A stretch of 64,000 nt of DNA from Nitrosomonadaceae bacterium. Its GTDB lineage: Bacteria; Pseudomonadota; Gammaproteobacteria; Burkholderiales; Nitrosomonadaceae. Of this stretch, positions 30,507 to 55,253 are shown piece after piece (positions within the stretch are counted from its first letter, which is position 1; the number at the start of each line of letters is the position of its first letter). Location: the NCBI GenBank assembly GCA_919902515.1, contig CAKKRD010000010.1, forward strand, positions 1-64,000, written 5' to 3'. The position numbers and the translations under genes were made by a program. A model generated the notes under the pieces. That model made no database searches. It was not told the origin of the DNA and saw only the letters and a program-made list of their open reading frames with translations.

Positions 30507-30539
30507 GGGCCAGCGTTGGCTGCCGGAGGCAACGGCTTG

Positions 30540-33155
30540 CTAGGCCGCAGCCCGGCTCCCTTGTTCGTACTGCCGGTAGAATGTTTGCTTCAGGAGCTCG
30601 GCTGAGCCGATGTACCCCAGCACAATCAGCCCCATGAGTCCGAGAAAGAGGGGCGGAAGCGGCACAAAGCCAAACAGATTGCCGAGCGGCGTATACGGGA
30701 GCGCGACAGCAGCAGCGGCTACAGCCAGCGTCGCCAGCGTCAGTGCTGTGGACGGCCTGCTCCTCCAGAACGGACCGCGAGTGCGAATGACGAGCACAAC
30801 CAGCGCAGCCGACACGACGGATTCGACGAACCAGCCGCTACGAAACAGCTCGGGAGAAGCTTCCAGGATGAAGAACAACACCCCGAATGTGAGGAAGTCG
30901 AAAACGGAACTGAGCAACCCGAACTTGAGCATGAAGTCGCGGATGAATTTCATGTCCCAGCGCTGGGGCCGCTCGACCGATTCGGTATCTACTCTGTCCG
31001 TGGCGATGGTCATTTCCGGCAAATCAGTCATCAAATTGGTGAGCAGAATCTGCTTTGGCAGCAGCGGCAGAAAAGGCAGGAAAAGCGATGCGCCGGCCAT
31101 GCTGAACATGTTGCCGAAGTTTGCGCTCGTGGCCATGAAAACGTATTTCATGGTATTCGCAAAGGTTGCACGGCCCGCACGCACACCGGCAGCAAGCACG
31201 GCGAGATCCGGCTCGAGCAACACGATGTCAGCGGCTTCCTTCGCTACATCCGCGGCACCTTGAACCGATAAGCCGACGTCCGCCGCGTGCAGCGCTGGAG
31301 CATCGTTGATGCCGTCGCCCAGGTAGCCAACTACATGGCCTGCCGTGCGCAGTGCACGGATGATGCGCTCTTTTTGGTTCGGCTCAACCTCGGCAAAAAT
31401 GTCTGTCATCCGCGCCAACTGTGGCAGCGCCTCGTCGCTTACCTGTCGCAGTTCCTGCCCGCTCACGATACGCGCATCAACCAGGCCGATCTGCCTGGCT
31501 ACTTCTCGCGCCACCAACTGATTGTCCCCGGTAATCACCTTGAGCGCGATACCAAGACCTTGCAGCTCCAGGATCGTTGCCGCAATCCCTGCTTTCGGTG
31601 GATCCGAGAATAGCAGAAAGCCGACAAACGTGAGATCTGTCTCGTCTTCCCGTCCGGCAACGCAGCGCCCCGGCAATGACTTTATCGCAATTCCAAGCGT
31701 GCGCAGCCCGCGTGCACTAAACGCGGCATAGCGCTCAAGGATCGCCTGCTGCTGCCCCGCAATCGGAACAATCTCGCCGTCGCTCAACTCTACCGTAGCG
31801 CACGCCTCGATCACCTGTGACAGCGCTCCCTTGGTCACGAGTACGGCTTGTCCATCCATGGCTGCCAGCACACTCAGACGTTTGCGTGTGAAATCGTACG
31901 GTATCTCGTCAAGGCGCACTGCGCCAAAAGTCCCGTGATTGGCCGCCACCGTAATAGCATCGTCGATCGGGTTGTTAAAACCAGTTTGGAATGTCGCGTT
32001 GATTGCTGCCAGCTGCAGCGTACGCTCGCTTGGATTCCCTTCTGCATCCAGCGCGCCTTCCAGGCTGACCTTGCCTTCTGTAAGCGTGCCTGTCTTGTCC
32101 GAGCACAGCACGTCCATGCTGCCAAAGTTCTCGATCGAAACGAGTCGTTTAACGATAACTTTCTTGGCGGCCATCCGGCGAGCCCCGCTGGCTAGATTTA
32201 CACTAATGATTGCCGGCAGCAATTCGGGGGTCAGACCGACAGCAAGCGCCAGCGCGAACAGAAACGAATCGAGGACCGGCCGCTGCAACAGGACGTTGAA
32301 GGCAAAGATCAGGATCACGAGGATCAGCGTCAACCGGATCAGCAATGTGCCAAATTGACGCACTCCGCGCTCGAAATCCGTTTCCTCCGGCCGAGTCCGC
32401 AACTGCTGTGCGATCGCACCGAATTCCGTGTTGCGGCCCGTTCGTATGACCAGAGCCCGGCCATTCCCACTGACCACATGGGTGCCCTGGAACAGCGCAT
32501 TGGTGCGGCGTGCCAGCGGCGTGTCTACCGGCAAATCGGCCGCGGCCTTCTCGACCGGGAATGTCTCCCCGGTCAGGGTTGCCTCGTTGACAAATAGATC
32601 GCGTGACTCCAACAAGCGGCAATCTGCAGGTACGCCAGAACCTGCGGAAAGGAGAACAATATCACCTGGCACCACCTCATCCCGCGGCACTCTGGTTGCC
32701 GCACCATCGCGCATGACCATGGCACTTAGTTCGACCATTTGCTGCAAGCTGGCGACGACCGTCGCGGCACGGAATTCTTGCCAGAAACCCAGCAAACCGC
32801 TGGCGGCAACGATAAAGAGAATGATGAACCCATCGCTCGGGTCGTGCACCGCGAACGACAGAATCGCTGCGACAATCAAGATCAGGACAATAGGAGAGCC
32901 AAACTGTCGCAACAGTAAGGAAACAACGCTGGGTGCGCCATTATCCTCGAGTGCGTTGGCACCAAAATGTTTAAGCCGCTCAGTCGCCTCGGCCGTGCTG
33001 AGGCCATCAATCGATGTATCGATATCCTGGGCTGTCTCTTCGACACTGCGCGCCCACCACGGCGAGTCTTTCGATCTCGTGAAATTCACCAGAAAATCCT
33101 CACCTAGACATTCGCCGAGAACACGACGATATCGCACAATAAGAGATAGACCCAC
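30540..33155 (-). CDS. mgtA: P-type Mg2+-transporting ATPase
   Basis: CSDKTGTLTEG, NEATLTGETFPVEKA, GYLGDGINDAPALHAADVGLSVQGAADVAKEAADIVLLE. Confidence 0.93.
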   Translation of the reverse strand: MGLSLIVRYRRVLGECLGEDFLVNFTRSKDSPWWARSVEETAQDIDTSIDGLSTAEATERLKHFGANALEDNGAPSVVSLLLRQFGSPIVLILIVAAILSFAVHDPSDGFIILFIVAASGLLGFWQEFRAATVVASLQQMVELSAMVMRDGAATRVPRDEVVPGDIVLLSAGSGVPADCRLLESRDLFVNEATLTGETFPVEKAAADLPVDTPLARRTNALFQGTHVVSGNGRALVIRTGRNTEFGAIAQQLRTRPEETDFERGVRQFGTLLIRLTLILVILIFAFNVLLQRPVLDSFLFALALAVGLTPELLPAIISVNLASGARRMAAKKVIVKRLVSIENFGSMDVLCSDKTGTLTEGKVSLEGALDAEGNPSERTLQLAAINATFQTGFNNPIDDAITVAANHGTFGAVRLDEIPYDFTRKRLSVLAAMDGQAVLVTKGALSQVIEACATVELSDGEIVPIAGQQQAILERYAAFSARGLRTLGIAIKSLPGRCVAGREDETDLTFVGFLLFSDPPKAGIAATILELQGLGIALKVITGDNQLVAREVARQIGLVDARIVSGQELRQVSDEALPQLARMTDIFAEVEPNQKERIIRALRTAGHVVGYLGDGINDAPALHAADVGLSVQGAADVAKEAADIVLLEPDLAVLAAGVRAGRATFANTMKYVFMATSANFGNMFSMAGASLFLPFLPLLPKQILLTNLMTDLPEMTIATDRVDTESVERPQRWDMKFIRDFMLKFGLLSSVFDFLTFGVLFFILEASPELFRSGWFVESVVSAALVVLVIRTRGPFWRSRPSTALTLATLAVAAAAVALPYTPLGNLFGFVPLPPLFLGLMGLIVLGYIGSAELLKQTFYRQYEQGSRAAA

Positions 33156-33357
33156 ATATTATTATGTTTAAGCCATAATCACAGGGTCTCAAGAAGAATA
33201 GAACAGGGCAGGAGCGTCGCATCCGCAGTGCGGTGTTACGGTGAAGTCTTGACGCTACCCGCTATACCGGGCAGTCAGTTGCAATGAATAATGTCAGACA
33301 GACAGATTCCAGCGTCTGTTTTGCCGAACGGGCGGGAAATTTGAGTAAAAGATCAGA

Positions 33358-33676
33358 TCAGTATGAGGCCGTCGGCCCTTCCACCCAGAGGCAGTCTGAA
33401 ATCAGGCACATGCCACCAAATTCCTTCAACCTGGGGGCGTAGCGCCGCAACCACTTTCTGTGCCTGCTCTTCCTGGCAGGCAAGAATCACCATGGCATTT
33501 TCTTCCTGTAAAAAGAGACCGTCAGGGCGCCGTTCACCGCGCGAACCGAGACCGCCCGTATGCTTGATGAAAGTGTAGCCGCGCACACCGGTTGATTCCA
33601 GCAATGCGATCAATTCGTTGAGCTTCTCCTCATCGACGACGATCTCGAACCGTTTCATTGTTATCGTATTATTCAT
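33358..33676 (-). pseudogene. PII-like signalling protein, paralogue of 44996-45313, with +1 frameshift in the last third (ORF track reads through to 33353)
   Basis: MNNTITMKRFEIVVDEEKLNELIALL...GLGSRGERRPDGLFLQEENAMVILACQEEQAQK. Nearly identical to the second copy up to ALRP; after one extra G in the G5 run at 33433-33437 the alternate frame restores LKEFGGMCLISDCLWVEGP-x-x-SY* with stop at 33358. Confidence 0.8.
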
Positions 33677-33904: not shown

Positions 33905-34975
33905 CTAAGCCGCTTTGTAAGTTACCGGGTTGGAAACCTTGTCCAAACGCTCCAGCACTTCAAATTTTCTTGTGTTCAGATCGGTACACCCGGTGAGTAT
34001 GTTCAAATGCGGCACCAGATCCGGAACCTTGGCCTTGATGACATCGAGCGCAAATTTACTCAGGAATCTGGCTTTCTCTTTCGCCAGCTCATATTCGGGA
34101 CCAATTTGTCTATAAGCAGCCGAAGTCATGAGCACAATACCGCTTGGGTCGACCCGGCCATCGTCGATGTTGCCTTTCAGCAATACAGCCGCAGTTCCAA
34201 TCGCATCGAAAAGATTCGGATCAAACGGCCCGACTATGAAAGCCGTATTGATGGCATGCAGCCAGTCAAAGCCGCGTCCTACTCCCAAGACCCATTCCTT
34301 GTGTTCGGCATCCTCGATCGGCCTGTTGGAAGTACGGATCATTCGAGAGTGTTTGATGTTTCCTTCAACCAGCGGGGTCATATCCTTGAAAATCCGTTCC
34401 GGCATTGAAGGATACAGTGAACGCAGCATGCTTTCCAATTCGAGTCCGGACAAGCCTTCCTTCACTTCAGCCAGATCAACAACACGACCATCTTCGCCAT
34501 GCAGGATCAAAGCGTCCAAGTCGGTCTCAATGCCACACACAATGGGCACCACGGCACCCTTGCCATAAATACGCTCAAACTGGTTCTTGAGCTTTATGGC
34601 CGTATCTCTGGCAGCATTGGTATCGTAATTGAATCCTCTGCAACCACGGTGAACATCCCCGCGCGCAAAATGATAGGTCACAAAGATCAGGCAGTGCCTG
34701 CCGCGGCTGATGGAGTACTGCGCCCAGTTGTCCAAGGTTGCCTGAAAAAATGGCCAGCCCAGATCAAACTTGCCACCCAAGTTGCGAAAAGGCTGGATGA
34801 TGCCAACTGCGGTTCGCGTCATGACCGGCAAATGAAGCCTGCCATCCATGCATTTGAGCGCCGCTATTTCAGTGGGGTGCTCACCCCGGTATCTGCGGCG
34901 CTCCATGGCCAAATCAATAAAAGTTCGAGAGTGGCGCGCATTCAAATCAAGCAGGTAATCAGTTCCGGTATTCAT
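33905..34975 (-). CDS. Carboxysomal-shell-carbonic-anhydrase (CsoSCA)-like / beta-type carbonic anhydrase-like protein
   Basis: 356 aa; C42-M-D44-G-R46 (CxDxR) and H102...H109-R-G-C112 (HxxC) give a beta-CA-type zinc site; HRGCRGFNYDTNAARD...VCGIETDLDALILHGEDG resembles the remembered CsoSCA segment HSGC...ND...GVDTDTDAIRVH. Confidence 0.65.
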   Translation of the reverse strand: MNTGTDYLLDLNARHSRTFIDLAMERRRYRGEHPTEIAALKCMDGRLHLPVMTRTAVGIIQPFRNLGGKFDLGWPFFQATLDNWAQYSISRGRHCLIFVTYHFARGDVHRGCRGFNYDTNAARDTAIKLKNQFERIYGKGAVVPIVCGIETDLDALILHGEDGRVVDLAEVKEGLSGLELESMLRSLYPSMPERIFKDMTPLVEGNIKHSRMIRTSNRPIEDAEHKEWVLGVGRGFDWLHAINTAFIVGPFDPNLFDAIGTAAVLLKGNIDDGRVDPSGIVLMTSAAYRQIGPEYELAKEKARFLSKFALDVIKAKVPDLVPHLNILTGCTDLNTRKFEVLERLDKVSNPVTYKAA

Positions 34976-35068: not shown

Positions 35069-36574
35069 CTAAGGAGCTGGATTAAGTAGCCGCGACAACC
35101 ATACTTCTGACGCCATTTGGTTGATATGCAGCACGCTGTCCGGGAAAAACCCAAACACCAGAACCAGCAGAGCGGGAACACATAGCAGAGCCAGTTCACG
35201 CGGGGATAGGTCTTGCGCCTGATTGACAACGGATTGCGTGATCGGACCGAAAAACGCACGGCGGATATAGGACAACATGTATGCAGCACCGAGGACTGCA
35301 CCGACCAATGCAGCGATGCCCAAACTAGCGTGTGCTTTTAATGCACCGATAATCAACATCAGTTCAGCAGGAAAACCGCTGGTTCCCGGTACCCCGATAC
35401 TGGCCAGGGTAAACAAGAAATAAAAACAGGTCAGCCGTGGCATCACTTTGGCCAGACCACCCAAGTGGATAATTTCGGTACTGCCCAACCGGTGTTGAAT
35501 CATGCCGGCAATCAGCATCAGCGAGCTAGCCACCAAAGTGAAGTTGAGCAATTGGAAAACCGCACCCTGCAGACCCTGCATGTTCAGGGACGCGATACCA
35601 ACCACCACCAGACCGACGTGGCTGAGACTGGCATAAGCCAGCAGACGGCGCAAATTAGTTTGTTGCAAGGCGATCAACGCACCATACACAAGCGTAACCG
35701 TACCCAGAATACCCAATATCCAACTGTATTCGACCGCTGCAGCAGGGGCTAACGGCATGGTAAAACGCAAGATACCGTAAGCTCCCAGCTTCATACCAGT
35801 CAGTATCGCCGTTACGTGTGCCGGCCCCTCCATTGCAGCAGTGGGTAACCAGGTATGGAAGGGGGCTAAAGGTGCTTTGACAGCGAAACCAAGCAGTAAT
35901 AGTAGAAAAACCAGTGGTTGCAAATCAGCCGCCAAAGGTGTTTCCAGCAGGACCGGCAAGCTGAAGGATAGTGCCTGGGGAATAGCGCCGCCCACTGCCA
36001 CAGCGTGATTGGTTGCTAATATGACGATTGCAAATAGTAGCGGCACCCCGCCAAACAGCATAAACAGCGTATATTTCATCGCAGCGCCGCGGCGCTGCGA
36101 ACCGATGCCCCATAAACCGATTAAAAAGAAGAAAGGCGGCAGCGTCAATTCCCAGAATAAAAAGAACAGCACCGTATCCAGCGCCGTAAATACCCCGATG
36201 GTGACCCCTTCCAGTGCCAGCAATAATGCGAAATGAAAGCGGGGACTCTGTTGCACCGAATTCCACGAAGCAACGATCGCAGTCAGCGTCAACAGTGCTG
36301 ACATAGGCAGGAACAACACTGAGATGCCGTCAATACCGACCAGATAGTCGATATTCAGGAACGGTATCCAGGGATACTTTTCGACCAGTTGGAAACCGCC
36401 GCTACCGGCATTGAACGACTGCACTATCAGCAGCGTCAACAGCAGTTCGCAACCAGCAATTGCCAGCGCGATCACTTTGGCCAGTTTTACGGTAGGGGTG
36501 AACCCGGTGGCAATAGCACCCAGTAATGGCAACAGAATGGCAAGACTCAGTAGCGGGAAACCGGCTTCACTCAT
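35069..36574 (-). CDS. NuoM-like antiporter/complex I proton-channel subunit (third NuoM-like)
   Basis: LFFLFWELTLPPFFFLIGLWG (TM5 Glu), LGFAVKAPLAPFHTWLPTAAMEGP (TM7 Lys). Confidence 0.88.
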   Translation of the reverse strand: MSEAGFPLLSLAILLPLLGAIATGFTPTVKLAKVIALAIAGCELLLTLLIVQSFNAGSGGFQLVEKYPWIPFLNIDYLVGIDGISVLFLPMSALLTLTAIVASWNSVQQSPRFHFALLLALEGVTIGVFTALDTVLFFLFWELTLPPFFFLIGLWGIGSQRRGAAMKYTLFMLFGGVPLLFAIVILATNHAVAVGGAIPQALSFSLPVLLETPLAADLQPLVFLLLLLGFAVKAPLAPFHTWLPTAAMEGPAHVTAILTGMKLGAYGILRFTMPLAPAAAVEYSWILGILGTVTLVYGALIALQQTNLRRLLAYASLSHVGLVVVGIASLNMQGLQGAVFQLLNFTLVASSLMLIAGMIQHRLGSTEIIHLGGLAKVMPRLTCFYFLFTLASIGVPGTSGFPAELMLIIGALKAHASLGIAALVGAVLGAAYMLSYIRRAFFGPITQSVVNQAQDLSPRELALLCVPALLVLVFGFFPDSVLHINQMASEVWLSRLLNPAP

Positions 36575-38168
36575 TATGTCCGCCTTTGGCCCCGACAGGC
36601 ACAGTCACCGTGCCGGACTGTTTTGTACCATGATGTGAGGAATTCAACACAGCATCCAGCTCGCTCATGGAGGCCACTACGTTCTGGTCTATCACATGTA
36701 CCCAGGGTGTCGTGTAAAAACCGGTGCCGATGAGCAATGCGCAAATCACTACAGCGATAACCTGTTCCTTTCTGGCGGGTTGCTGAACGCTGCTGTGAGG
36801 TTGCAGAAACCGTTTAGGCGCGGCGATAAACATCTGTTGAAAAGCACGCAGCAGAAGACCTGCAGCCAGGAGGTTGCCTAGCAATATCGCACTGACAACC
36901 AGCCAGCCGTATCTGGTGGCGGTGCCCTCAATCAGCAGATGCGCGCCGTCAAACCCAGGGGTACCGGGCATGACCATGGTGGTCAGTGCAGAGATCACAA
37001 ACAGAAATGCAATGGTGATATTGGCATCAAACAGTCCGCCCAGGCGGGGGATAAAAGCAGTGCGAGTCCACTCATAAATCAGACCGACACTGAAAAACAT
37101 GCCCGCTGTCGCGAGTCCATAAGCAACGGATAACAGGATGGTTCCTTCCATGCCGTATTTGTTGAAATCAAAAATGCCGATGACCAGCATTCCTGTATGA
37201 CTGACGACGGCAAAGGCCAGCAAGCGGCGGATATTGATTTGCATCAGTGCCAGCAACGCGCCGTAAACGATACTGATTAAACCCAGTGTCAATACAAATC
37301 CGGACCATTGTTCGGCTATCTCCGGAATCAGCGGTAAAATAAAACGGATAGCTCCGTAAACCCCCAGTTTCAGGCCCACCAGGAAAATGGCCACACTGGC
37401 GACAGTGCCCTGTTCCGCCAATACCGGCAGCCAACCGTGAAACGGGAATATCGGCATACGGATGGCAAAACCAAAAAACAGGAGAAAGAAGATCAGCGAT
37501 CCATACTGTAAATGCGCATTACTGACTTCTTTCAATTTCAACCAGTCAAAAGTCAATTCGGCGTCAGGTGTTGCACCCATTAAGCCAAAGGCGAGCAACA
37601 TGAAACCTGCCAGGGTCATCAATAACCCGCTCAGCCAGTGCTGCAGCAAAAATGCGACCACCCAGCGCCGGTTTTCCCCGGTTCCGGCACGAATCGTCAA
37701 CAGCACCACCGGAATCAGTTCCAGCACACACCATAGCCAGAACTGCATCAGATTCATCGCCGAGAACGCGCCAATCAGGATGCCCTCATAGCCCAGAAAA
37801 CATGCGATTTTTAGCCGATCAGTAGCGTGCCGGGTAATCGAGGTATAAACCAAAACCAGTAGTGTAAAAATGGCCGTCAGTGGAATAAACAATATATTGG
37901 CGCCATCAACGCCCACGCTGTAAGTAAAGCCAAGGTTGTGTATCTCTTCAGCCAGTTGAATACCAGGACGATCAGCATCGAAAACACTCAGCAGGTAGAA
38001 GCTGAGCAATACCGTCGACAGTGCTCCGGCAAAACCGATACGCAATGCTACCGACGATGAACGTGACAATAGAATAGCGGCCATCGTTGCCAGCGGGATA
38101 AGCGTCAGCATTGTCAGCAACGGAAACGCTGCTGATTCTGACCAGGGGATAACAGGAGTAATTGCCAT
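36567..38168 (-). CDS. NuoM-like antiporter subunit, divergent (second NuoM-like)
   Basis: LWCVLELIPVVLL retains Glu; FGFAIRMPIFPFHGWLPVLAEQG has Arg where NuoM carries Lys. Start at MAITPVIPW (38168). Confidence 0.85.
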   Translation of the reverse strand: MAITPVIPWSESAAFPLLTMLTLIPLATMAAILLSRSSSVALRIGFAGALSTVLLSFYLLSVFDADRPGIQLAEEIHNLGFTYSVGVDGANILFIPLTAIFTLLVLVYTSITRHATDRLKIACFLGYEGILIGAFSAMNLMQFWLWCVLELIPVVLLTIRAGTGENRRWVVAFLLQHWLSGLLMTLAGFMLLAFGLMGATPDAELTFDWLKLKEVSNAHLQYGSLIFFLLFFGFAIRMPIFPFHGWLPVLAEQGTVASVAIFLVGLKLGVYGAIRFILPLIPEIAEQWSGFVLTLGLISIVYGALLALMQINIRRLLAFAVVSHTGMLVIGIFDFNKYGMEGTILLSVAYGLATAGMFFSVGLIYEWTRTAFIPRLGGLFDANITIAFLFVISALTTMVMPGTPGFDGAHLLIEGTATRYGWLVVSAILLGNLLAAGLLLRAFQQMFIAAPKRFLQPHSSVQQPARKEQVIAVVICALLIGTGFYTTPWVHVIDQNVVASMSELDAVLNSSHHGTKQSGTVTVPVGAKGGHNE

Positions 38169-38175
38169 CAGTCCC

Positions 38176-39744
38176 TCAGATTGCAGCTGCAAGCAGCAAC
38201 ACTGTGAATACAAACACCACCAGGTAGCGGGGTTTCAGTATTAATTTTTCAAATTTATTGGCGGCAAATCCAAGCTGGCGCCCCATGTCGATCGCGTCTA
38301 TGCCTATGCCCCGCAATACCAGGCGATCTTCAAACCAATTGAAAATATCCGCTGTCCATTGGAAAAATTTGCCCGCGAATCCACTGCCACGACTGAATTC
38401 ATCAGCGTCATGATCCGGCCGGGAACTCAGTATTTTCCCTTCCAGTTGCGCCAGCGATGATATGGCGCGGCCTGCGCGCGCAGGTGTGCCCATGATGCGG
38501 TCAACGATGTGGTCATCAAAATAGCCCAGATCATGTCCCAGCCCGTGAACCGGTCTTACCAAAGCCCGATCGGTAACCGGATCCAGCCAGAAACGCTGTA
38601 TCGATGCGGTATATAGCCAACGTAGTCCGGCGATGTCGCGCGAAACCGGCTTCATCGGGTTGCCGTGTACATAATGCAGAAACGACGGCGCGGTCAATAC
38701 TTGATAACAGCGTACAACAGCATGAGCGCAAAGATGCCAACTGGCCAGTTGCCACAGACCCAGACCGCACTCCAGGAACATCAAACCCAGTTGGCCAGAT
38801 ATAGCAAAACACAGCGAACTTTTAACGTCGGTTTGAGTGAGTCCGACCACAAAGCTATAGATGGCAGTGCCTAATCCCACAACGGCGAGCAACCCCATTG
38901 CAAATGGAGCCTGTTCAAAAATTGGCTGCAGCAGAATCACCAGATAGACCCCAGCATGCGTCATGATCGCACCATAAAATACCGCACTCGACGGTGTCGG
39001 CCCTTCCATCGCCCGCGCCAACCAGGGAGTGAACGGCAACTGTGCCGATTTTGCAAAAGCTGCTATGGCGAAACACATAGCGATTACAGTGGCGGTAGGG
39101 GTGGTCAATTGCGTCGCCACTGCATTCAGACCGTTCCAATCAATGTTCCTGGCATAAAAATAGCTGATGCCTATTCCCAGAATAAAACCGGCATCACCGA
39201 TGCGATTGGTGACAAATACACGAGTTGCATTGATAACAGCGACTGGACGGTCATATGCAAAGGCTATCAACAGATAGGAACATAGCCCGGCAATTTCCCA
39301 GCCGACAAAAGTACCAACAGCGTTACCCGATAACACCAGCAACAACATTGCCGAAGAAAACAAGCTCAGGGCGAAGAAGAATCGGTAGAAACCGGGTTCT
39401 TTATGCAGGTAATTGATTGAGAAACGAGTGACAATGACTAGCAATATCGAAAACAGCGCTGCCAAGCCGACATTAAAACCCGTAGTGATGAAATTCACCT
39501 TTATGCTCAGGCTATCACTGCCCAGCCATTGCCCCGCACTGAACGAGCCGGTGTTTTTACCGAGCAAATCGGCGCCCAGCAGAGTCAGAGCCAGTAGGCA
39601 CGACAAGGTAATCGCCCAGCTAGCGATACGCGCCGTGACCGCTTCGTCGGCCACACCACGCAACATGCCAAAGACATGACCGATGCCGATCACCGCGGCA
39701 GCGGTCAATGGTAACAACAGGATCAGAACAACCAATGCATCCAT
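38176..39744 (-). CDS. NuoL/NdhF-like subunit, candidate DabB partner of DabA
   Basis: MDALVVLILLLPLTAAAVIGIG..., FVGWEIAGLCSYLLIAF, FAKSAQLPFTPWLARAMEGPTPSSAVFYGAIMTHAGVYL. ATG at 39744, 4 bp after the DabA stop. Confidence 0.88.
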   Translation of the reverse strand: MDALVVLILLLPLTAAAVIGIGHVFGMLRGVADEAVTARIASWAITLSCLLALTLLGADLLGKNTGSFSAGQWLGSDSLSIKVNFITTGFNVGLAALFSILLVIVTRFSINYLHKEPGFYRFFFALSLFSSAMLLLVLSGNAVGTFVGWEIAGLCSYLLIAFAYDRPVAVINATRVFVTNRIGDAGFILGIGISYFYARNIDWNGLNAVATQLTTPTATVIAMCFAIAAFAKSAQLPFTPWLARAMEGPTPSSAVFYGAIMTHAGVYLVILLQPIFEQAPFAMGLLAVVGLGTAIYSFVVGLTQTDVKSSLCFAISGQLGLMFLECGLGLWQLASWHLCAHAVVRCYQVLTAPSFLHYVHGNPMKPVSRDIAGLRWLYTASIQRFWLDPVTDRALVRPVHGLGHDLGYFDDHIVDRIMGTPARAGRAISSLAQLEGKILSSRPDHDADEFSRGSGFAGKFFQWTADIFNWFEDRLVLRGIGIDAIDMGRQLGFAANKFEKLILKPRYLVVFVFTVLLLAAAI

Positions 39745-39748
39745 TGCT

Positions 39749-42700
39749 TTAAACTCCCAGCTCTTCAGGCTGTTTAACCAACACTGGCGATACCGGCACC
39801 GATAGTCCCTGGTAACAATCCACTGATTTCTCAACCACTGACAATTCTTCAACTTCAGCTTGCCACGGGACAAAACCCACGCCACGCTCAAACACGGAAA
39901 TTTCACCGCTGTCAGGGTCTATCGCGCTCAACAGCACCCAGCCACCACCTATCAGCTCACGCAAACTTTCCTGACGGCCATAAATTTCTCCGAGCACTGA
40001 GGTTCTTGCTTCAACCACAATCTGTAAACGCACCGCTTCATGGATTTCTACCATTTGTTTTGGCAGGCCGGTACGTAAATCACTGCTGGCCCCCTCCATC
40101 ACGCCAAATAGACCGATGATGTTGTGGGGGATTTTTGTACCGCAGCCAAAACGCTCATTATTGATCGTGGAAAAGTAGTATTCCAGATTAATCCCGGCGC
40201 CAACGGGACCTACCGTCAGTAGAACGTTTTCGAGCAGTTTGCCATCGGGATCCTGGGTTGCATCGTAGGAAATAAGAAAAGCGCGCCGATCCAGAAATAT
40301 CCCCTGCGTGACGGAGCGTCGACCGATGACCGCTGAGGCATTGGTGGCATGTCCGTATTCGGGACGAACCTGACTCAAATCATTGGAACGATTTGTCACA
40401 TGGCGCATGGCTGCTTCTGGCGATGCCGGATTGCGGGCTGAAAAAAAGCGCCGGCAACGCTCTTGAGCGGAGGCAGCCCGAGCCTGCAAAACGCAGGTTT
40501 GACAGTCATCGAAAGCAGATCGTAATTTTTGCGGAACGTCTTCTACGTCGTACCAGGTAACGACATCACTGGAAGTATCATGTTCGGCACCGACGAACCA
40601 GCTATCTTCAGGAATCACGATTCCCCGCTGCACCAACAAGGCACGCACTTCGGGGCGGTTGGCCATTGCCGCAAATACACGTGCATTCGGACCGCCACGC
40701 CGCCCGCTACAAGCGCCACAATCGTGGGCAGCTTCGTGGGGATTATTTTGACTGGTTGAACCATGTGCCATAAAACAAACGATCGGCGCAAAGCCATAAG
40801 TCAGGCCGGCGTTGCGCAAGAATCCGGCAAGCCGGTCAGCCTGTTCAGTCGTTGTAAAACCCAATCGCGGATTTTCAGGGGTTGCCGGGCCAGCCGTATC
40901 TGCGGCAGTGAATAGCAACTCAGTCGGCACTTCGCGTAAGATACTCTGCCGCAGGTTGCTATTGGCTGCATTAAAATAGGTAGGCAGAAATGTTTTGCTT
41001 AACAATGTGGTTAAAGTAAATGGAGCCAGCGCATCAATGGCTGCATACGATAACAACACATTGCGGCGAAGGCTCTGGTTCAGCAAATAAGCGAGTCGTT
41101 TGTAGAGGTTGCGCCCGCTGTTATGTGCATGCAGCACCTCGTCAGCGCCTTTTCTCGGGATCTCGTCGACTTCGTGAGCTGGCGTCACGACCACTGGACA
41201 CAGTGCTGTCCGGTGATGGTCGTCCAGTCCTTTATAATTCATCGGGATCCCGAAGAACCCGGCGGCACCAAGTGTTTCAATAGCAGGATTGATTTCTTCC
41301 AGATGACGGCGAATACTTTCTTCACGCTCATCAATACAAAATACCACTTGTGCCTGAGGACGTTTATCGCGCCGCGCCCAGCGGCCACGGTTATGGTTGG
41401 CGCGCAACGCCTGAAATAATTCTTCCCTGTAATGATACTCGTAAGCATCAAGCCAAACCTTGCTGCGCTCAGTCAGGTTGAATTCATCCAGTAGCGCCAG
41501 CATCTGTTGCAAATCTTTTTGCTGCAGTTGCTGAACATATGCGGCATTGAGTCCCAGATGCTGGCATAGACGAAACAAGCGCCAGCCACCATTGAAGCCA
41601 CAGCTTCCGGCGTTGGTTTCCGCCATCGGGCTGAATTGCCAGGTCCAGACTAGGTCGGCGAGCTGCTGCCAGTCGGATTGTTTATGCCGTTCGGAACCGG
41701 TGCGGCTTATCAATGATTCGGCCGGCTGCGTCAGGTATTCCGGCAGGCCGCCCTGATACAGTTGGCTGCGCACCATGAATTCCGATAGATTCTTACGAAA
41801 ATAGAATTGCAGTGAACTCAGTTTGGCTTCAATTTTCCAGGTTTCATGACAGGCCTGATTAAGCCAGAGTCTGTCCAGAATCAGCCGGATGGCCAGATAA
41901 TCCGCCAGCTTCGGTGCCGCATCGTTCTCGGCATGGTATTGCGGATGATGCTGCCGCCAGTTGATCAACCCCGACCAACCCGGCAATTCAAGCGCCAGCC
42001 GCTGCAGATACCCTTCCCATTTATCATGCGGTATTTCCAGTTGGGTCAGTTGCTGGATAATGGTATCGACCGCATCCTCTGGAGACTCAGCCACGATCTG
42101 CTGCCAGCCGGGCAAGTCGTGCAAGAACGGACTCATGTCGTATTGAGCTGTTGCCCGCCAGGCAGCGTAAAGGCCCAAGCGGCTGCGTTCCGGCAGTTGC
42201 CAGGCTGCCACGCCCTCGTCCAGAGCAGATGCACAGATGCGTATCATTTGTGGACGAACGGAGTAGAGAATATCAATTCCGCTCAATGCCAGGACAAAAC
42301 CGCGCAGGGTAATGCCGTCGCCGAGTTGAGCCAGCAACTCATCCAGTGAAGCGGCGGCTTGTTGCCGCATGCGCTGATGCAGCGTAAGACCGCTGCTATC
42401 CGGATCACTGGAATGAATTTTCTCCAGCCAGACTTCAGCCTGATCCAGCGATAAATCCAGCATGTTCTCCGGATGCAGGTTGACCTGCTCCAGCCCCAGC
42501 TTATCCGAAATACTTTCCCACAACTGCCTGACGCCAGCACTCTGGTCGGTGCTGTTTGCCAGCAACCGCCTGCGAACTTGCTCAGGCACATCAGCCTGCA
42601 CTGTGCCCAGAGCATCCAGTTCTTCTATTTGCCAGTTCAACTGACTGACAGTGAGGGGTTGCAGGTCAAACAACATGGCGATGCGATAAATATCCTTGCG

Positions 42701-43027
42701 CGTAATCGTTAAGTCACCCGCTGTACCAACGATTTGCTCAGACTGTAACTGCGGGTTATGCGCAAGCGCGGCAAACAGATCCCGGTCATTAATCCGTCCC
42801 TGTTGATAGAACTCCCGGTTTTGTGCTTCAGGAAGATAACCGAAGGTACCGGTTAATGCTTCGTATGCTGCCAGCGCCTGTTCAAATGGCAGATGCTGAA
42901 AACCATGGATGGTATTGTGATGGACAAAATCATGAATCGGCCCTTGCCCAGGAAGGACATGATCCAAATGATCCAGCGCCGCGATGATCTGCTCACGACT
43001 GCCAAGTGGTTCAGAGGTTATATGCAT
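39749..43027 (-). CDS. dabA: DabA-like inorganic carbon uptake protein (DUF2309)
   Basis: 1092 aa; VVFCIDEREESIRRHLEE (Cys and Asp) and CFMAHGSTSQNNPHEAAHDCGACSGRRGGPNAR (His and Cys 15 residues apart) match the DabA zinc site pattern. Confidence 0.93.
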   Translation of the reverse strand: MHITSEPLGSREQIIAALDHLDHVLPGQGPIHDFVHHNTIHGFQHLPFEQALAAYEALTGTFGYLPEAQNREFYQQGRINDRDLFAALAHNPQLQSEQIVGTAGDLTITRKDIYRIAMLFDLQPLTVSQLNWQIEELDALGTVQADVPEQVRRRLLANSTDQSAGVRQLWESISDKLGLEQVNLHPENMLDLSLDQAEVWLEKIHSSDPDSSGLTLHQRMRQQAAASLDELLAQLGDGITLRGFVLALSGIDILYSVRPQMIRICASALDEGVAAWQLPERSRLGLYAAWRATAQYDMSPFLHDLPGWQQIVAESPEDAVDTIIQQLTQLEIPHDKWEGYLQRLALELPGWSGLINWRQHHPQYHAENDAAPKLADYLAIRLILDRLWLNQACHETWKIEAKLSSLQFYFRKNLSEFMVRSQLYQGGLPEYLTQPAESLISRTGSERHKQSDWQQLADLVWTWQFSPMAETNAGSCGFNGGWRLFRLCQHLGLNAAYVQQLQQKDLQQMLALLDEFNLTERSKVWLDAYEYHYREELFQALRANHNRGRWARRDKRPQAQVVFCIDEREESIRRHLEEINPAIETLGAAGFFGIPMNYKGLDDHHRTALCPVVVTPAHEVDEIPRKGADEVLHAHNSGRNLYKRLAYLLNQSLRRNVLLSYAAIDALAPFTLTTLLSKTFLPTYFNAANSNLRQSILREVPTELLFTAADTAGPATPENPRLGFTTTEQADRLAGFLRNAGLTYGFAPIVCFMAHGSTSQNNPHEAAHDCGACSGRRGGPNARVFAAMANRPEVRALLVQRGIVIPEDSWFVGAEHDTSSDVVTWYDVEDVPQKLRSAFDDCQTCVLQARAASAQERCRRFFSARNPASPEAAMRHVTNRSNDLSQVRPEYGHATNASAVIGRRSVTQGIFLDRRAFLISYDATQDPDGKLLENVLLTVGPVGAGINLEYYFSTINNERFGCGTKIPHNIIGLFGVMEGASSDLRTGLPKQMVEIHEAVRLQIVVEARTSVLGEIYGRQESLRELIGGGWVLLSAIDPDSGEISVFERGVGFVPWQAEVEELSVVEKSVDCYQGLSVPVSPVLVKQPEELGV

Positions 43028-43036
43028 GGCAATATC

Positions 43037-44509
43037 CTATTGAATACGTTGACTGATCAAGTTGCTCATGTGGCCCAGGGTTGCTGACGACAAGTCAATC
43101 AGTGGCTCAGGCAGCAGACCAAACAACACGATACCTGTAACCAGTAAACCGGCTGCCAATAACTCGGGGGTACGCAAATCTTCGATCTCTCGCATCTGCG
43201 GTTTTACCGGGCCAGTGAACAACAGGCCGATGGTGCGAATGGCATAGGCAGAACTGATCAGGATGCTCAGGCTGAAAAACACCATCAAGCTGCCCCATTG
43301 CTGATAGCCGCCGATAACGGCATGCAATTCGGCAATAAAACCTACCGAACCCGGCAAGCCCATCGCTGCAAACAGGGTCAAAGTCATGAACAAGGCAAAA
43401 CGCGGCATCACTTGGACCAATGAGCTGTAATCCTGAATGTTGCGGGTATGGGTGCGTTCATACAGCAACCCCACCAGCAGAAACATCGCGCCGGCAATCA
43501 ATCCATGAGCGGTCATCTGCAAAACTGCGCCGGTAAGTCCCGTTTCATTCAAGGCGGCAATGCCCAGCAAAACAATGCCCATGTGGCTGACCGAAGAATA
43601 AGCCACCATCGCTTTGAGATCGCTTTGCCGCCAGGCCAGCAAGCCACCGTAAATCATCCCGAATAACGCCAGGAAAACCAGCCATGGCTGCAATATTTGT
43701 GCAGCCTCCGGCAGCATCACCACGGCCCTTATCAGGCCATAAGAACCCATTTTCAGCAAAATGCCAGACAGCAGAATACTGACCGGGCTGGGCGCTTCAA
43801 CGTGGGCCAAAGGCAGCCAACCATGCATTGGGAAAATCGGCATCTTGACCCCAAAACCGATCAAAAGACCCAGTAGCACCCAGACTTGCTCATCCCGCGG
43901 CATGCTTTGCGCCGCCTCACTCATCGAGGCCATCAACGAACCGCCATGTTCGGGCATGTAGTGACCAATCGCGAGCAAACTGATGAGCATAAAAATCGAA
44001 CCGCCCATCGTGTACAGTACGAAGTTGAGACTGGCCGTGTGCCGCCGTTTACCGCCCCAGCGGTCAATCAGAAAAAACAGCGGGATTAAAGTCAATTCCC
44101 AGAAGATGTAAAACAGCGCCCAGTCCTGTGCCAGAAATACGCCCAACATGCCGAACTCCAGCAACAGGATACAAATATGAAAACTTTTAATACTGTTTGA
44201 AATGGTAAAAGAAGCGAGCATTGCAATGGATGTGAGCAGCGTCGCCAACACCAGCATGGGAATCGACAGGCCGTCAACACCCAGGGCAAAAGCACTGCCT
44301 AATTTGGGGTTGAGCGTAAACTGTTCACCGAACTGAATGGCACTATCCTGCTGATCGTAAATGATGACCAGCCAGCAACTCAGCAAAAATGTGAGGGTAG
44401 CAAACAGGTTGGCGAAGAAACGAATCGAACGGGTATCCTGACCAGACGTGAAAGACAAAACCAGAATGCCGACAATCGGGGTCCAAAGCAATAAGCTGAG
44501 TATCCCCAT
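43037..44509 (-). CDS. NuoM-like antiporter subunit (first NuoM-like, first gene of the DAB operon)
   Basis: FYIFWELTLIPLFFLIDRWGG, GFGVKMPIFPMHGWLPLAHVEAPSPVSILLSGILLKMGSYG. Confidence 0.9.
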   Translation of the reverse strand: MGILSLLLWTPIVGILVLSFTSGQDTRSIRFFANLFATLTFLLSCWLVIIYDQQDSAIQFGEQFTLNPKLGSAFALGVDGLSIPMLVLATLLTSIAMLASFTISNSIKSFHICILLLEFGMLGVFLAQDWALFYIFWELTLIPLFFLIDRWGGKRRHTASLNFVLYTMGGSIFMLISLLAIGHYMPEHGGSLMASMSEAAQSMPRDEQVWVLLGLLIGFGVKMPIFPMHGWLPLAHVEAPSPVSILLSGILLKMGSYGLIRAVVMLPEAAQILQPWLVFLALFGMIYGGLLAWRQSDLKAMVAYSSVSHMGIVLLGIAALNETGLTGAVLQMTAHGLIAGAMFLLVGLLYERTHTRNIQDYSSLVQVMPRFALFMTLTLFAAMGLPGSVGFIAELHAVIGGYQQWGSLMVFFSLSILISSAYAIRTIGLLFTGPVKPQMREIEDLRTPELLAAGLLVTGIVLFGLLPEPLIDLSSATLGHMSNLISQRIQ

Positions 44510-44995: not shown

Positions 44996-45313
44996 TCAGT
45001 ATGAGACTGCCGGCCCTTCCACCCAGAGGCAGTCTGAAATCAGGCACATGCCGCCGAATTCCTTCAGTTTGGGACGCAGCGCCGCGACTAACTTCTGCGC
45101 CTGCTCTTCCTGACAGGCGAGAATTACCATGGCATTCTCTTCCTGCAGAAAGAGGCCATCGGGGCGCCGTTCGCCGCGTGAGCCGAGGCCGCCCGTATTC
45201 TTGATGAAGGTGTAGCCGCGCACGCCAGCCGCCCCCAGCAACGCGATCAGTTCGTTGAGTTTTTCTTCATCAACAACGATCTCGAATCGTTTCATTGCTA
45301 TTGAGTTATTCAT
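44996..45313 (-). CDS. PII-like (SbtB/CPII-like) signalling protein
   Basis: 105 aa, MKRFEIVVDEEKLNELIALLGAAGVRGYTFIKNTGGLGSRGERRPDGLF...GGMCLISDCLWVEGPAVSY; immediately downstream of the SbtA-like gene. Confidence 0.82.
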   Translation of the reverse strand: MNNSIAMKRFEIVVDEEKLNELIALLGAAGVRGYTFIKNTGGLGSRGERRPDGLFLQEENAMVILACQEEQAQKLVAALRPKLKEFGGMCLISDCLWVEGPAVSY

Positions 45314-45362: not shown

Positions 45363-46316
45363 CTATGCTGGAGCGCCGACGAAGAATTTCGCCATTTCAT
45401 AGTAAATCGGCACGCCGATAAATATGTTAAATGGGAAGGTCACCCCGAGGGAAGCGCCGATCGATACCGCTGGATCCGCATCCGGTACCGCGATGCGCAT
45501 GGCTGCGGGAGCGGCGATGTAGGAGCAACTGGCGTACAGCACACCCAGCATCGTGGTGCCGCCCAACGACAGGCCAAATGCGCTGCCCAGGAAGCAGCCG
45601 AGCAGCCCGGCTGCTAGCGGGAACGCGATGCCGAATACAAGCAGGAACGCGCCTTTTTTCCTGATTGCCGCCAGCCGCGCCGATGCCAGCAGACCCATCT
45701 CCAGCAGGAAGAAAGCCAGCACGCCCATGAACAGGTCCATGAACATCTTGTCCAGCGGTGAGACCAATTTCACGATACCGGCGTAGTAACCGATGATAAC
45801 CCCGCCAACCATCAGGAAAATGCTGGTGCCGGTCAGGATCTCGTGCATCAGTTTGCCCCACGCGGTTTCGCCTCCGGCGCCGCGTCGTGCCAGAATCGTG
45901 CCGGTTACCAGCGCCGGTATCTCCATCAGCGCCATGATCAGTACCATGTAGCCCTCGGACGTCTGCCCTACACCTTCCAGGAAGGCAATGCCCACGGCGA
46001 AGGTCACCGCACTCACCGAGCCGTAGTGGGCGGCGATGGCTCCCGAGTCAGCTTGGTTAAATTTACCTATATGCTTCAATATGGGATAGGCGCACAACGG
46101 AACCAGTGCCGCGAGTACAACCATGGACAGGGCAATGGGCAGCACCTCCATGATTTCGTACTTGGCCATCGATACCCCGCCCTTGAGACCGATCGCGATC
46201 AATAGGAAAAGGCTCATGCTTTTGTATAAAGCCTCGGGGATCTTGAGATCGGATCTCAGCACTCCGGCCAAAACCCCCAAGATGAAAAACAGTACTACTG
46301 GTTGTACGGTTGGCAT
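45363..46316 (-). CDS. sbtA: SbtA-like sodium-dependent bicarbonate transporter
   Basis: VVLFFILGVLAGVLRSDLKIPEALYKSMSLFLLIAIGLKGGVSMA, AAHYGSVSAVTFAVG, followed by a PII-like gene. Confidence 0.9.
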   Translation of the reverse strand: MPTVQPVVLFFILGVLAGVLRSDLKIPEALYKSMSLFLLIAIGLKGGVSMAKYEIMEVLPIALSMVVLAALVPLCAYPILKHIGKFNQADSGAIAAHYGSVSAVTFAVGIAFLEGVGQTSEGYMVLIMALMEIPALVTGTILARRGAGGETAWGKLMHEILTGTSIFLMVGGVIIGYYAGIVKLVSPLDKMFMDLFMGVLAFFLLEMGLLASARLAAIRKKGAFLLVFGIAFPLAAGLLGCFLGSAFGLSLGGTTMLGVLYASCSYIAAPAAMRIAVPDADPAVSIGASLGVTFPFNIFIGVPIYYEMAKFFVGAPA

Positions 46317-52593: not shown

Positions 52594-54732
52594 TCAGCGC
52601 ATATTAAGGCTGTCTTTCAATATGCGCGGGGTAACAAAAATCAGTAGTTCTGTTTTATTGTCCCTTATTGCGTTATTCCTGAACACGTTTCCAAGCAACG
52701 GAATATTTCCCAGCAGAGGCACCCTGTTGGTCAAAGTATTTTCGTCCCGGGAGAAAATACCGCCAATGACTACCGTCCCCCCATTCTCCACCAGTACCTG
52801 CGTGGTGATTTGCTTGGTATTGATGGTCGGCACACCAGTGGCTGTAATCGTGCCGATGCTGTCCTGATTGACGTTCAAGTTCATGATGACATTGTTGTCA
52901 GGCGTGATCTGTGGCGTAACCTTGAGGCGCAGTGTTGCATCCCTGAAGACAACGCTGGTGGCGCCGCTGCTGGTCGCCTGCTGGAAGGGTATGCGCGCAC
53001 CCTGTTCAATGGTGGCTTCAACCTGATCGGCAGTCACTATTCGCGGGCTGGCAATGACTTTGCCTCTGCCGTCAGTTTCCAGTGCGGACAACTCCAGGTT
53101 GACCAGAGTGCCATTATTGATCTTGATCAGGCTGAGGCCCAGTGTAAACGGCCCACCCAATGCGGCGGCGGCACCTGCAGCACCGATTGCTGGCATGTTG
53201 ACGTTATTAAACAGATTCGAGCCACTCGGGGAACCGCCAAGGGCCAAGGCGCTGGAACCCGTCTGAGGGCCGGAAATTCCGAGGCCGCCGACACTGTTAC
53301 TCTGAACACCGAAGCGGGCACCAAGATTACGGCTGAATGTGTCAATCGCCTCGACGATACGTGCCTCGATCATCACCTGCCGCACGGGTATGTCGATTTT
53401 TACGAGCAGTTTGCGCAGCTCTTCCAATTGCGTGGGCGTATCTCTCACAAACAAAGTGTTGGTGCGGGCATCCATCGCCACGCTGCCACGCTTGGACAAC
53501 ATCTTCTGCACCGGGTCAGCCAACATGGTTCTGATTACGTCGGCCTTCTGGTAACTCATCTGGAAACTCTCGGTGTGGATCGGCTCCAGATCGGAAATCT
53601 GCTGAAGGAACTCCAAATCAAGCTTCTCCTTGGTGGCAATTTCATCGCGTGGCGCAATCAGAATGACGTTACCGACTTGGCGCTGGCCCAATCCTTTGGC
53701 CTGAAGCATGATATCCAATGCCTGATCCCATGGGACATCCTTCAAACGCAGCGTAAGATTACCGGTGACTGTGTCGCTGGTGATGATATTGAGTCCGGTA
53801 AAATCAGCGATCACCTGCAGCACTGCGCGCACATCCACGTTCTGAAAATTGAGCGACAGCCTGTCGCCCTTGAAACCTCCACGGCCTGATTTTCCATTCG
53901 CGAGTCTGTCGAGATCCTCTGCCACCGGCTTCACTTTCAGAATAAATTTGGTATCCGTCTGATAAGCCGAATGTTCCCATGGCCCCTTGGATTCGATCAC
54001 CATGCGCACGTTTTCCCCATGCGTGAGGGTTTCGATGGTTTGTACCGGCGTGGCGAAATCCACTACATCCAGCCGCCGCTCCAGATTACGCGGCAGGGAT
54101 GCCTTGATGAATTCGACTACGATATTTTTTCCCTGCTGGCGCACATCAATTCCGATACCGGCATCCGACAAGTCCACCTGTACCAGCCCTTCACCGTCGG
54201 CACCGCGACGAAACTCCACATCCCGTAAACTGAGGAGCTGTGACCTGTCGGATTTGACTTCGGCAAAATGTGTGGCCGTACCGCTCACCGTGGGTTCAGC
54301 GATCACGCCCCGCAAGGTGATTAAAACGACTTTATCCTCGATTGCAGCAACATAATTCATCGGCCGAGACAGATTCATCACCAGACGGGTACGGCCTCCA
54401 ACCTGCACAATATTAAGGCTGCGCACTCCCCCTTCGTCAATTCTCAGAATATTCTTACCCAGTGCATTGGACGTGCTGAGGAAATCGAAATAAATCCGTG
54501 CCGAGTCTGAGTTGCTCAGGGAAATGCCAACGGGAGGGGCAGTCAGCGGCTGATTCATCGTCACCTTGACCACCGTCAGATTACCTTGAGCGGTGGAAAC
54601 ACTGATGTCTTCAATATTGTATTGCACAGCAGCAGCCGGTTCCGTGTCAGCCGCGATTGCGGGCGGGAGCATGGCCAATAACAAGATGCATCCCAGCCAC
54701 GCATAACGATTCATAACAGTCGGTGTGTTCAT
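52594..54732 (-). CDS. pilQ: Type IV pilus secretin
   Basis: AMIN domains, LNFQNVDVRAVLQVIADFTGLNIITSDTVTGN, VPLLGNIPLLGNVFRNNAIRDNKTELLIFVTPRIL. Confidence 0.96.
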   Translation of the reverse strand: MNTPTVMNRYAWLGCILLLAMLPPAIAADTEPAAAVQYNIEDISVSTAQGNLTVVKVTMNQPLTAPPVGISLSNSDSARIYFDFLSTSNALGKNILRIDEGGVRSLNIVQVGGRTRLVMNLSRPMNYVAAIEDKVVLITLRGVIAEPTVSGTATHFAEVKSDRSQLLSLRDVEFRRGADGEGLVQVDLSDAGIGIDVRQQGKNIVVEFIKASLPRNLERRLDVVDFATPVQTIETLTHGENVRMVIESKGPWEHSAYQTDTKFILKVKPVAEDLDRLANGKSGRGGFKGDRLSLNFQNVDVRAVLQVIADFTGLNIITSDTVTGNLTLRLKDVPWDQALDIMLQAKGLGQRQVGNVILIAPRDEIATKEKLDLEFLQQISDLEPIHTESFQMSYQKADVIRTMLADPVQKMLSKRGSVAMDARTNTLFVRDTPTQLEELRKLLVKIDIPVRQVMIEARIVEAIDTFSRNLGARFGVQSNSVGGLGISGPQTGSSALALGGSPSGSNLFNNVNMPAIGAAGAAAALGGPFTLGLSLIKINNGTLVNLELSALETDGRGKVIASPRIVTADQVEATIEQGARIPFQQATSSGATSVVFRDATLRLKVTPQITPDNNVIMNLNVNQDSIGTITATGVPTINTKQITTQVLVENGGTVVIGGIFSRDENTLTNRVPLLGNIPLLGNVFRNNAIRDNKTELLIFVTPRILKDSLNMR

Positions 54733-55253
54733 TGACTTCGCTCCTGATCTTCCAGTATTAGGGTGCTGACACGTTCTGCCCAGTCACCGGTATTGTCTTG
54801 CACGATTTCTTTAAGCCTAACCTCGGATTCCGAGATTGCGGTTATCGACCCGAAATCCTGACCCAGATAGCCACCCACTCTGACCCGGTGGAGGGTATTG
54901 TCCGGTGTCCTGATCAGTGCGTAGATCGCCTTATTTTGTTGCAACGAGCCAACCATTTTCAGGCTCTCCAGCGGGAAGCTTTCCAGAAACTCCTTGCGTC
55001 GCTTCAGATCTGGCTGGAGTCCACCGCCGCCACTTTTCATCGACTCGCTCTTGCGCGGCTTGAATGGATCGGGAATATCGAATGCGTCATAGGGATAGCG
55101 CTCATAGGGCTTGATCACGGGTGGCGGAACCACCTTGCCATGCAGATCTTTGCCGGAATCTCTGATGAATTGATCCAGATCGCTATAGGTACTCTCAGCG
55201 CAAGCAGATAGCGCTAATGAAATCAGCAGCGGCAGATGAGACCGCTGCATCAT
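54729..55253 (-). CDS. pilP: Type IV pilus lipoprotein
   Basis: ISLALSACAES lipobox, DIPDPFKP, VRVGGYLGQDFGSI; between pilO and pilQ. Confidence 0.93.
   Translation of the reverse strand: MMQRSHLPLLISLALSACAESTYSDLDQFIRDSGKDLHGKVVPPPVIKPYERYPYDAFDIPDPFKPRKSESMKSGGGGLQPDLKRRKEFLESFPLESLKMVGSLQQNKAIYALIRTPDNTLHRVRVGGYLGQDFGSITAISESEVRLKEIVQDNTGDWAERVSTLILEDQERSQ

Follow-up and report, generated by a model that had tools for sequence, protein, structure and literature searches.

The stretch of DNA analysed here (the window, 64,000 nucleotides of contig CAKKRD010000010.1 from a Nitrosomonadaceae bacterium) contains two PII-like genes, and the downstream one, pii-2, is read as an ORF of 107 aa with an odd C terminus, which raises the question of whether it encodes a new variant, a frameshifted gene that is rescued during expression, a gene that has just been lost or an intact gene that was misread by one base. 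The source is a draft genome (1.88 Mb, 65 contigs, 82% complete), whose nearest named relatives are drafts labelled Nitrosospira, Nitrosovibrio or Nitrosomonadales. On the minus strand, the region is ordered sbtA, pii-1, DAB block, carbonic-anhydrase-like gene and pii-2. sbtA (45363-46316) is matched as a sodium-dependent bicarbonate transporter (Pfam Sbt_1, E 3.6e-110) and adjoins the intact paralogue pii-1 (44996-45313), which is identified from the ORF list, Pfam P-II and its fold match to CPII and SbtB. The DAB-type inorganic carbon uptake block (35069-44509) comprises DabA (39749-43027; Pfam DabA, E 1.7e-253) and four NuoL/M-like membrane proteins (Proton_antipo_M for 35069-36574), and its order is kept in relatives. 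pii-2 itself (33353-33676) is an SbtB/CPII-type gene, and judging by the families and neighbours concerned, pii-1 and pii-2 would be regulators of bicarbonate uptake.

The immediate upstream neighbour of pii-2 (33905-34975, minus strand), which is also its neighbour in relatives, encodes a protein conserved at the end of the DAB block that resembles the carboxysome shell carbonic anhydrase at scores below the cut-offs (Pfam PF20686, E 3.7e-4; TIGR02701, 24.7 bits against a cut-off of 241), and it is possibly a stand-alone relative of that enzyme. On a short contig of another genome, this gene was matched as four overlapping pieces (L021:1356-2106, G008:C106), suggesting frameshifts or errors there.

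The initial annotation had placed one extra base in the downstream copy at a C5 run (plus-strand G5, 33433-33437), and alignment with eight relatives and both window copies confirmed this and assigned the base to window pii-2 only. The insertion falls at codon 80/81, and codon 81 is read as CCC followed by C; the run is C4 in the closest syntenic orthologues (L018 and L019) and three or four C long in other relatives, and the base appears as an insertion relative to both G006 and G003. The claim that removing it restores the tail was likewise borne out, as skipping one C yields the normal tail, RLKEFGGMCLISDCLWVEGPTASY, followed by a stop. In this ancestral frame the conserved tail (PRLKEFGGMCLISDCLWVEGPTASY and stop, 33358-33435, minus strand), which lies outside the annotated frame, ends on the stop at 33358-33360, while the frame as read stops at 33353-33355 after 26 out-of-frame residues. 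The statement that tail differences between the two window copies are mostly third-position and synonymous was overstated, since only 4 of the 8 base differences are in third position and the affected codons divide into 3 synonymous and 3 nonsynonymous. The two copies share a 21-mer, GGCATGTGCCTGATTTCAGAC, which occurs exactly twice (33394-33414 and 45032-45052) where 0.01 occurrences are expected. Against the L018 orthologue, the pii-2 tail shows 3 base differences over 25 codons, and on these sequences the orthologue comparison is better evidence for a kept tail frame than the comparison between the window paralogues.

In five other genomes (L018, L019, L020, L021 and L022), pii-2 has a syntenic orthologue flanked by the carbonic-anhydrase-like gene and rsgA; all five are open to the normal stop and do not carry the insertion. 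The same tail is common to 16 other intact homologues, and a 17-row alignment, from which L032 was omitted because it is divergent after residue 95, identified the tail from K84 to Y105 (GGMCLISDCLWVEGP and its ends) as the most conserved part of the family, nearly invariant. The possibility that orthologues use the out-of-frame C terminus, named at the outset as a refuting case, thus fails, since the original frame is the one used by all five syntenic orthologues and by every intact relative. A family survey covered 61 genomes with about 76 distinct PII-like matches (counted by hand from the table), among which three frames are disrupted, namely window pii-2, a relic in G007 and one copy in G021; homologues in G034 and G054 that were flagged with stops represent ordinary variation at the gene end. 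Adjacency to sbtA distinguishes the two copies, being present for pii-1 in the window and in L015-L017 and L023-L031, and absent for pii-2, which follows the DAB block and the carbonic-anhydrase-like gene. Window pii-2 was grouped with L018 and L019 with a tree support of only 0.67, at 93% identity and with its position kept. The insertion is private to this draft genome, and because no relative shares it, it most likely reflects either a copy that broke very recently or a slip in sequencing.

When pii-1 sequences are used as the outgroup, which assumes that no gene conversion has occurred between the copies, the window pii-2 branch carries 5 synonymous and 0 nonsynonymous changes in the 80 codons before the shift, and the chance of five out of five being synonymous under neutrality is 0.002-0.004. 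After the shift, 1 synonymous and 1 nonsynonymous change (V103A) were found in 25 codons, too few to test for relaxed selection. The excess of synonymous changes before the shift indicates that selection has been acting on pii-2, either up to a very recent point or to this day.

The shift changes the predicted fold of the product. Pfam P-II (PF00543, cut-off 25) matches the shifted pii-2 with 47.8 bits over residues 7-83 only and intact pii-1 with 49.1 bits over residues 7-92. The predicted structure of pii-1 has a final strand at residues 89-98 (mean pLDDT 83) and hence a complete ferredoxin-like fold with the last beta-strand, while in the model of shifted pii-2 no strand of at least 3 residues was predicted past residue 83 (mean pLDDT 63, with residues 85-107 below 50) and the fold is incomplete; this low confidence is partly expected because the tail has no relatives in the alignment. 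The shifted product therefore ends in 26 unrelated residues in place of the conserved C-terminal strand and its two cysteines.

One way to accommodate such a product is to regard the out-of-frame tail as a functional new C terminus, in which the cysteine pair is removed and the PII core is kept. The pii-2 ORF does stay open to 107 aa, and in cyanobacterial SbtB the cysteine-bearing R-loop is found in only about half of the proteins (PMC10991534), therefore PII-like proteins can live without the redox loop. However, the cysteine pair of the family is part of the strand region, not of a trailing loop, the modelled tail is disordered and the last beta-strand is lost as well, and the tail is used by no relative. 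Because of the lost strand and the lack of any relative with this tail, a new functional C terminus is unlikely, and we regard it as very improbable. A second proposal leaves the insertion real and has some full-length protein made by leaky rescue, either through a +1 slip of the ribosome at CCC-C (CGC-CCC-CAG, CCC then AGG) or through slippage of RNA polymerase on C5. The constraint before the shift is intact and the codon at the shift is slip-prone, with CCC then C at codon 81; CCC-C is known to be +1-prone for proline tRNAs, with shifting of up to about 1% reported when it stands at codon 2 in E. coli (PMC4519876), and homopolymer frameshifts in Blochmannia have been suggested to be corrected by slippage during transcription (PMC3017870). 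Nevertheless, C5 is short, the site is located deep in the gene and not at codon 2, and it occurs in no relative, which gives no sign of selection for it; a low yield is expected. In a large survey, frameshifted genes were grouped by conserved position and direction of the shift before recoding was called (PMC3711429). Here neither is conserved, as 0 of 5 syntenic orthologues have the site and intact family members are read through in one frame, and programmed +1 frameshifting of pii-2 is disfavoured for this reason. Since nothing is conserved at the site, any rescue would be accidental, and leaky rescue is considered improbable. A search for RNA elements near pii-2 returned only sub-threshold Rfam matches. 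Still more remote is the idea that the population switches pii-2 between on and off states, or tunes it at a low level by +1 slippage at CCC-C, so that one of two PII regulators of carbon uptake would be silent or altered in some conditions; with regard to phase variation, the tract is short, with five C in window pii-2 against four in L018 and L019 and three or four in other relatives, and none of these sequences comes from the same species. Among the three options raised by the initial annotation, a recent break and a sequencing error thus both survive, whereas slippage lacks comparative support, the site being confined to this genome.

Between these two, we place about even confidence in the reading that the insertion has only just turned a redundant paralogue into a loss-of-function allele. 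A one-base slippage insertion in the window lineage would have converted C4 to C5 at codon 80/81, the product would probably be non-functional or unstable, which is why pii-2 is read as a loss-of-function allele, and its role could be covered by pii-1. As is usual for pseudogenes, the frame is disrupted relative to intact syntenic orthologues. A somewhat lower confidence, not far short of even, is given to the alternative that the true sequence is C4 and pii-2 is intact, the fifth C being a sequencing artefact or the result of merging closely related strains. The draft is incomplete and in many contigs (82% complete, 65 contigs), the insertion is a single event inside a homopolymer that is found in no relative, and the codons ahead of the shift, which are under purifying selection and have gathered no damage, look as they equally would in an intact gene wrongly read. 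Homopolymer indels are described as a recognised assembly error in two reports (PMC9262707, PMC12007338), a comparable isolated frameshift was seen in another draft of the genus (G006, gene at window 52594-54783), and other candidate frameshifts in the window genome amount, by a rough count, to about one per 100 kb of compared sequence. On the other hand, 40 coding homopolymers of six or seven bases in the window show no clear frame break relative to relatives, hence an error would not be systematic, and the independent decay of pii-2 in G007 makes a real loss plausible. The window contains 166 coding runs of at least 5 bases, 40 of them longer than five, and only in the pii-2 run does a change of length clearly disrupt a gene of the window; because of this one clear case in 166, a systematic homopolymer problem in this stretch of the assembly is unlikely and is not supported. 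Relative to G006 and G003, with indels sorted by eye, the pii-2 insertion is the only isolated single-base coding indel attributed to the window in both comparisons, the others being mutually compensating, at gene ends, outside a true gene or the relative's own. A wider sample of 217 genes, drawn from stretches of the genome, yielded four candidate frameshifts in the window genome and, compared the other way round, five; some of them are ORF-end artefacts, and one of the five is pii-2 itself. These counts are rough because the gene-model scan has 5'-end artefacts, and the scan missed pii-2 in the G006-to-G000 direction.

Other genomes provide a setting for the young-loss reading. In G007, a genome of the same genus, a pii-2 relic (L010:1501-1629, G007:C1) retains the last 42 or so codons and a TAG stop, the first 60 or so codons are missing and the adjoining DAB block is intact; no sbtA match was found, and the place of sbtA and pii-1 is filled by universal-stress-like and SulP-like transporter ORFs, named from reading the sequence. 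In G004, the interval between the regulator genes and rsgA lacks sbtA and pii as well as any closely related DAB genes, and in G021, of another genus, an extra PII-like copy (L161, about 1981-2310, G021:C50) has lost its frame through a single missing base immediately ahead of a G5 run while an intact copy is present elsewhere in the genome. From this relic, this absence and this frameshift, it appears that extra PII-like copies are lost from time to time in the family, although the three genomes are also drafts, and single-base cases are equally doubtful, from which the G007 relic is exempt.

The flank of pii-2 shows possible signs of exchange. Between rsgA and pii-2 lies an mgtA-like P-type ATPase (window 30508-33357; feature at 30540-33155, minus strand; the MgtA name comes from reading the sequence alone), which also adjoins rsgA in G004 with 96% protein identity and is absent from this place in G006, G003, G002, G005, G008 and G007, where the ends of rsgA and pii-2 are about 15 bases apart. 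This suggests that the boundary of the mgtA-like gene, about 80 bases from the pii-2 frameshift, may be a recombination junction. Separately, pii-2 DNA is identical in G006 and G003 (L018:8001-8315, L019:3168-3482), while their pii-1 copies differ by ~11% and dabA differs strongly, suggesting a recent exchange of the rsgA-pii-2 end between them.

For annotation, the case is mostly a caution against taking the 107-aa PII-like protein, with its odd C terminus, for a new variant. A real insertion would mean that, in the bicarbonate-uptake region of an ammonia oxidizer, one of two PII-like regulators has been lost very recently, and it would raise the question of whether the DAB block needs its own PII partner.

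Comparison with known systems places the family and the frameshift on familiar ground. The top PDB sequence match to pii-1 (E 4e-7), and also its top fold match (E 2.6e-8), is CPII of Thiomonas intermedia K12 (PDB 5d4l, 5d4n, 5d4o and 5d4p), a PII-like protein crystallised with bicarbonate and adenine nucleotides; identity is about 26%, however, and the aligned tail of CPII does not contain the CLISDC motif. Like SbtB, the cyanobacterial PII-like regulator of SbtA, pii-1 is encoded directly downstream of sbtA, its fold matches SbtB structures, and a C-terminal cysteine pair is present both in SbtB (PMC10991534) and in the pii-1/pii-2 family. In contrast, the sequence match is weak (E 0.004), and the cysteines of the window family (C90 and C95) are within the last strand, whereas those of SbtB are in a separate R-loop. 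The frameshift itself resembles homopolymer frameshift pseudogenes and assembly frameshifts described in bacteria (clusters, PMC3711429; Blochmannia, PMC3017870), which likewise combine a single-base change in a short run with constrained flanks and intact orthologues, and relative to these the pii-2 case has nothing distinctive.
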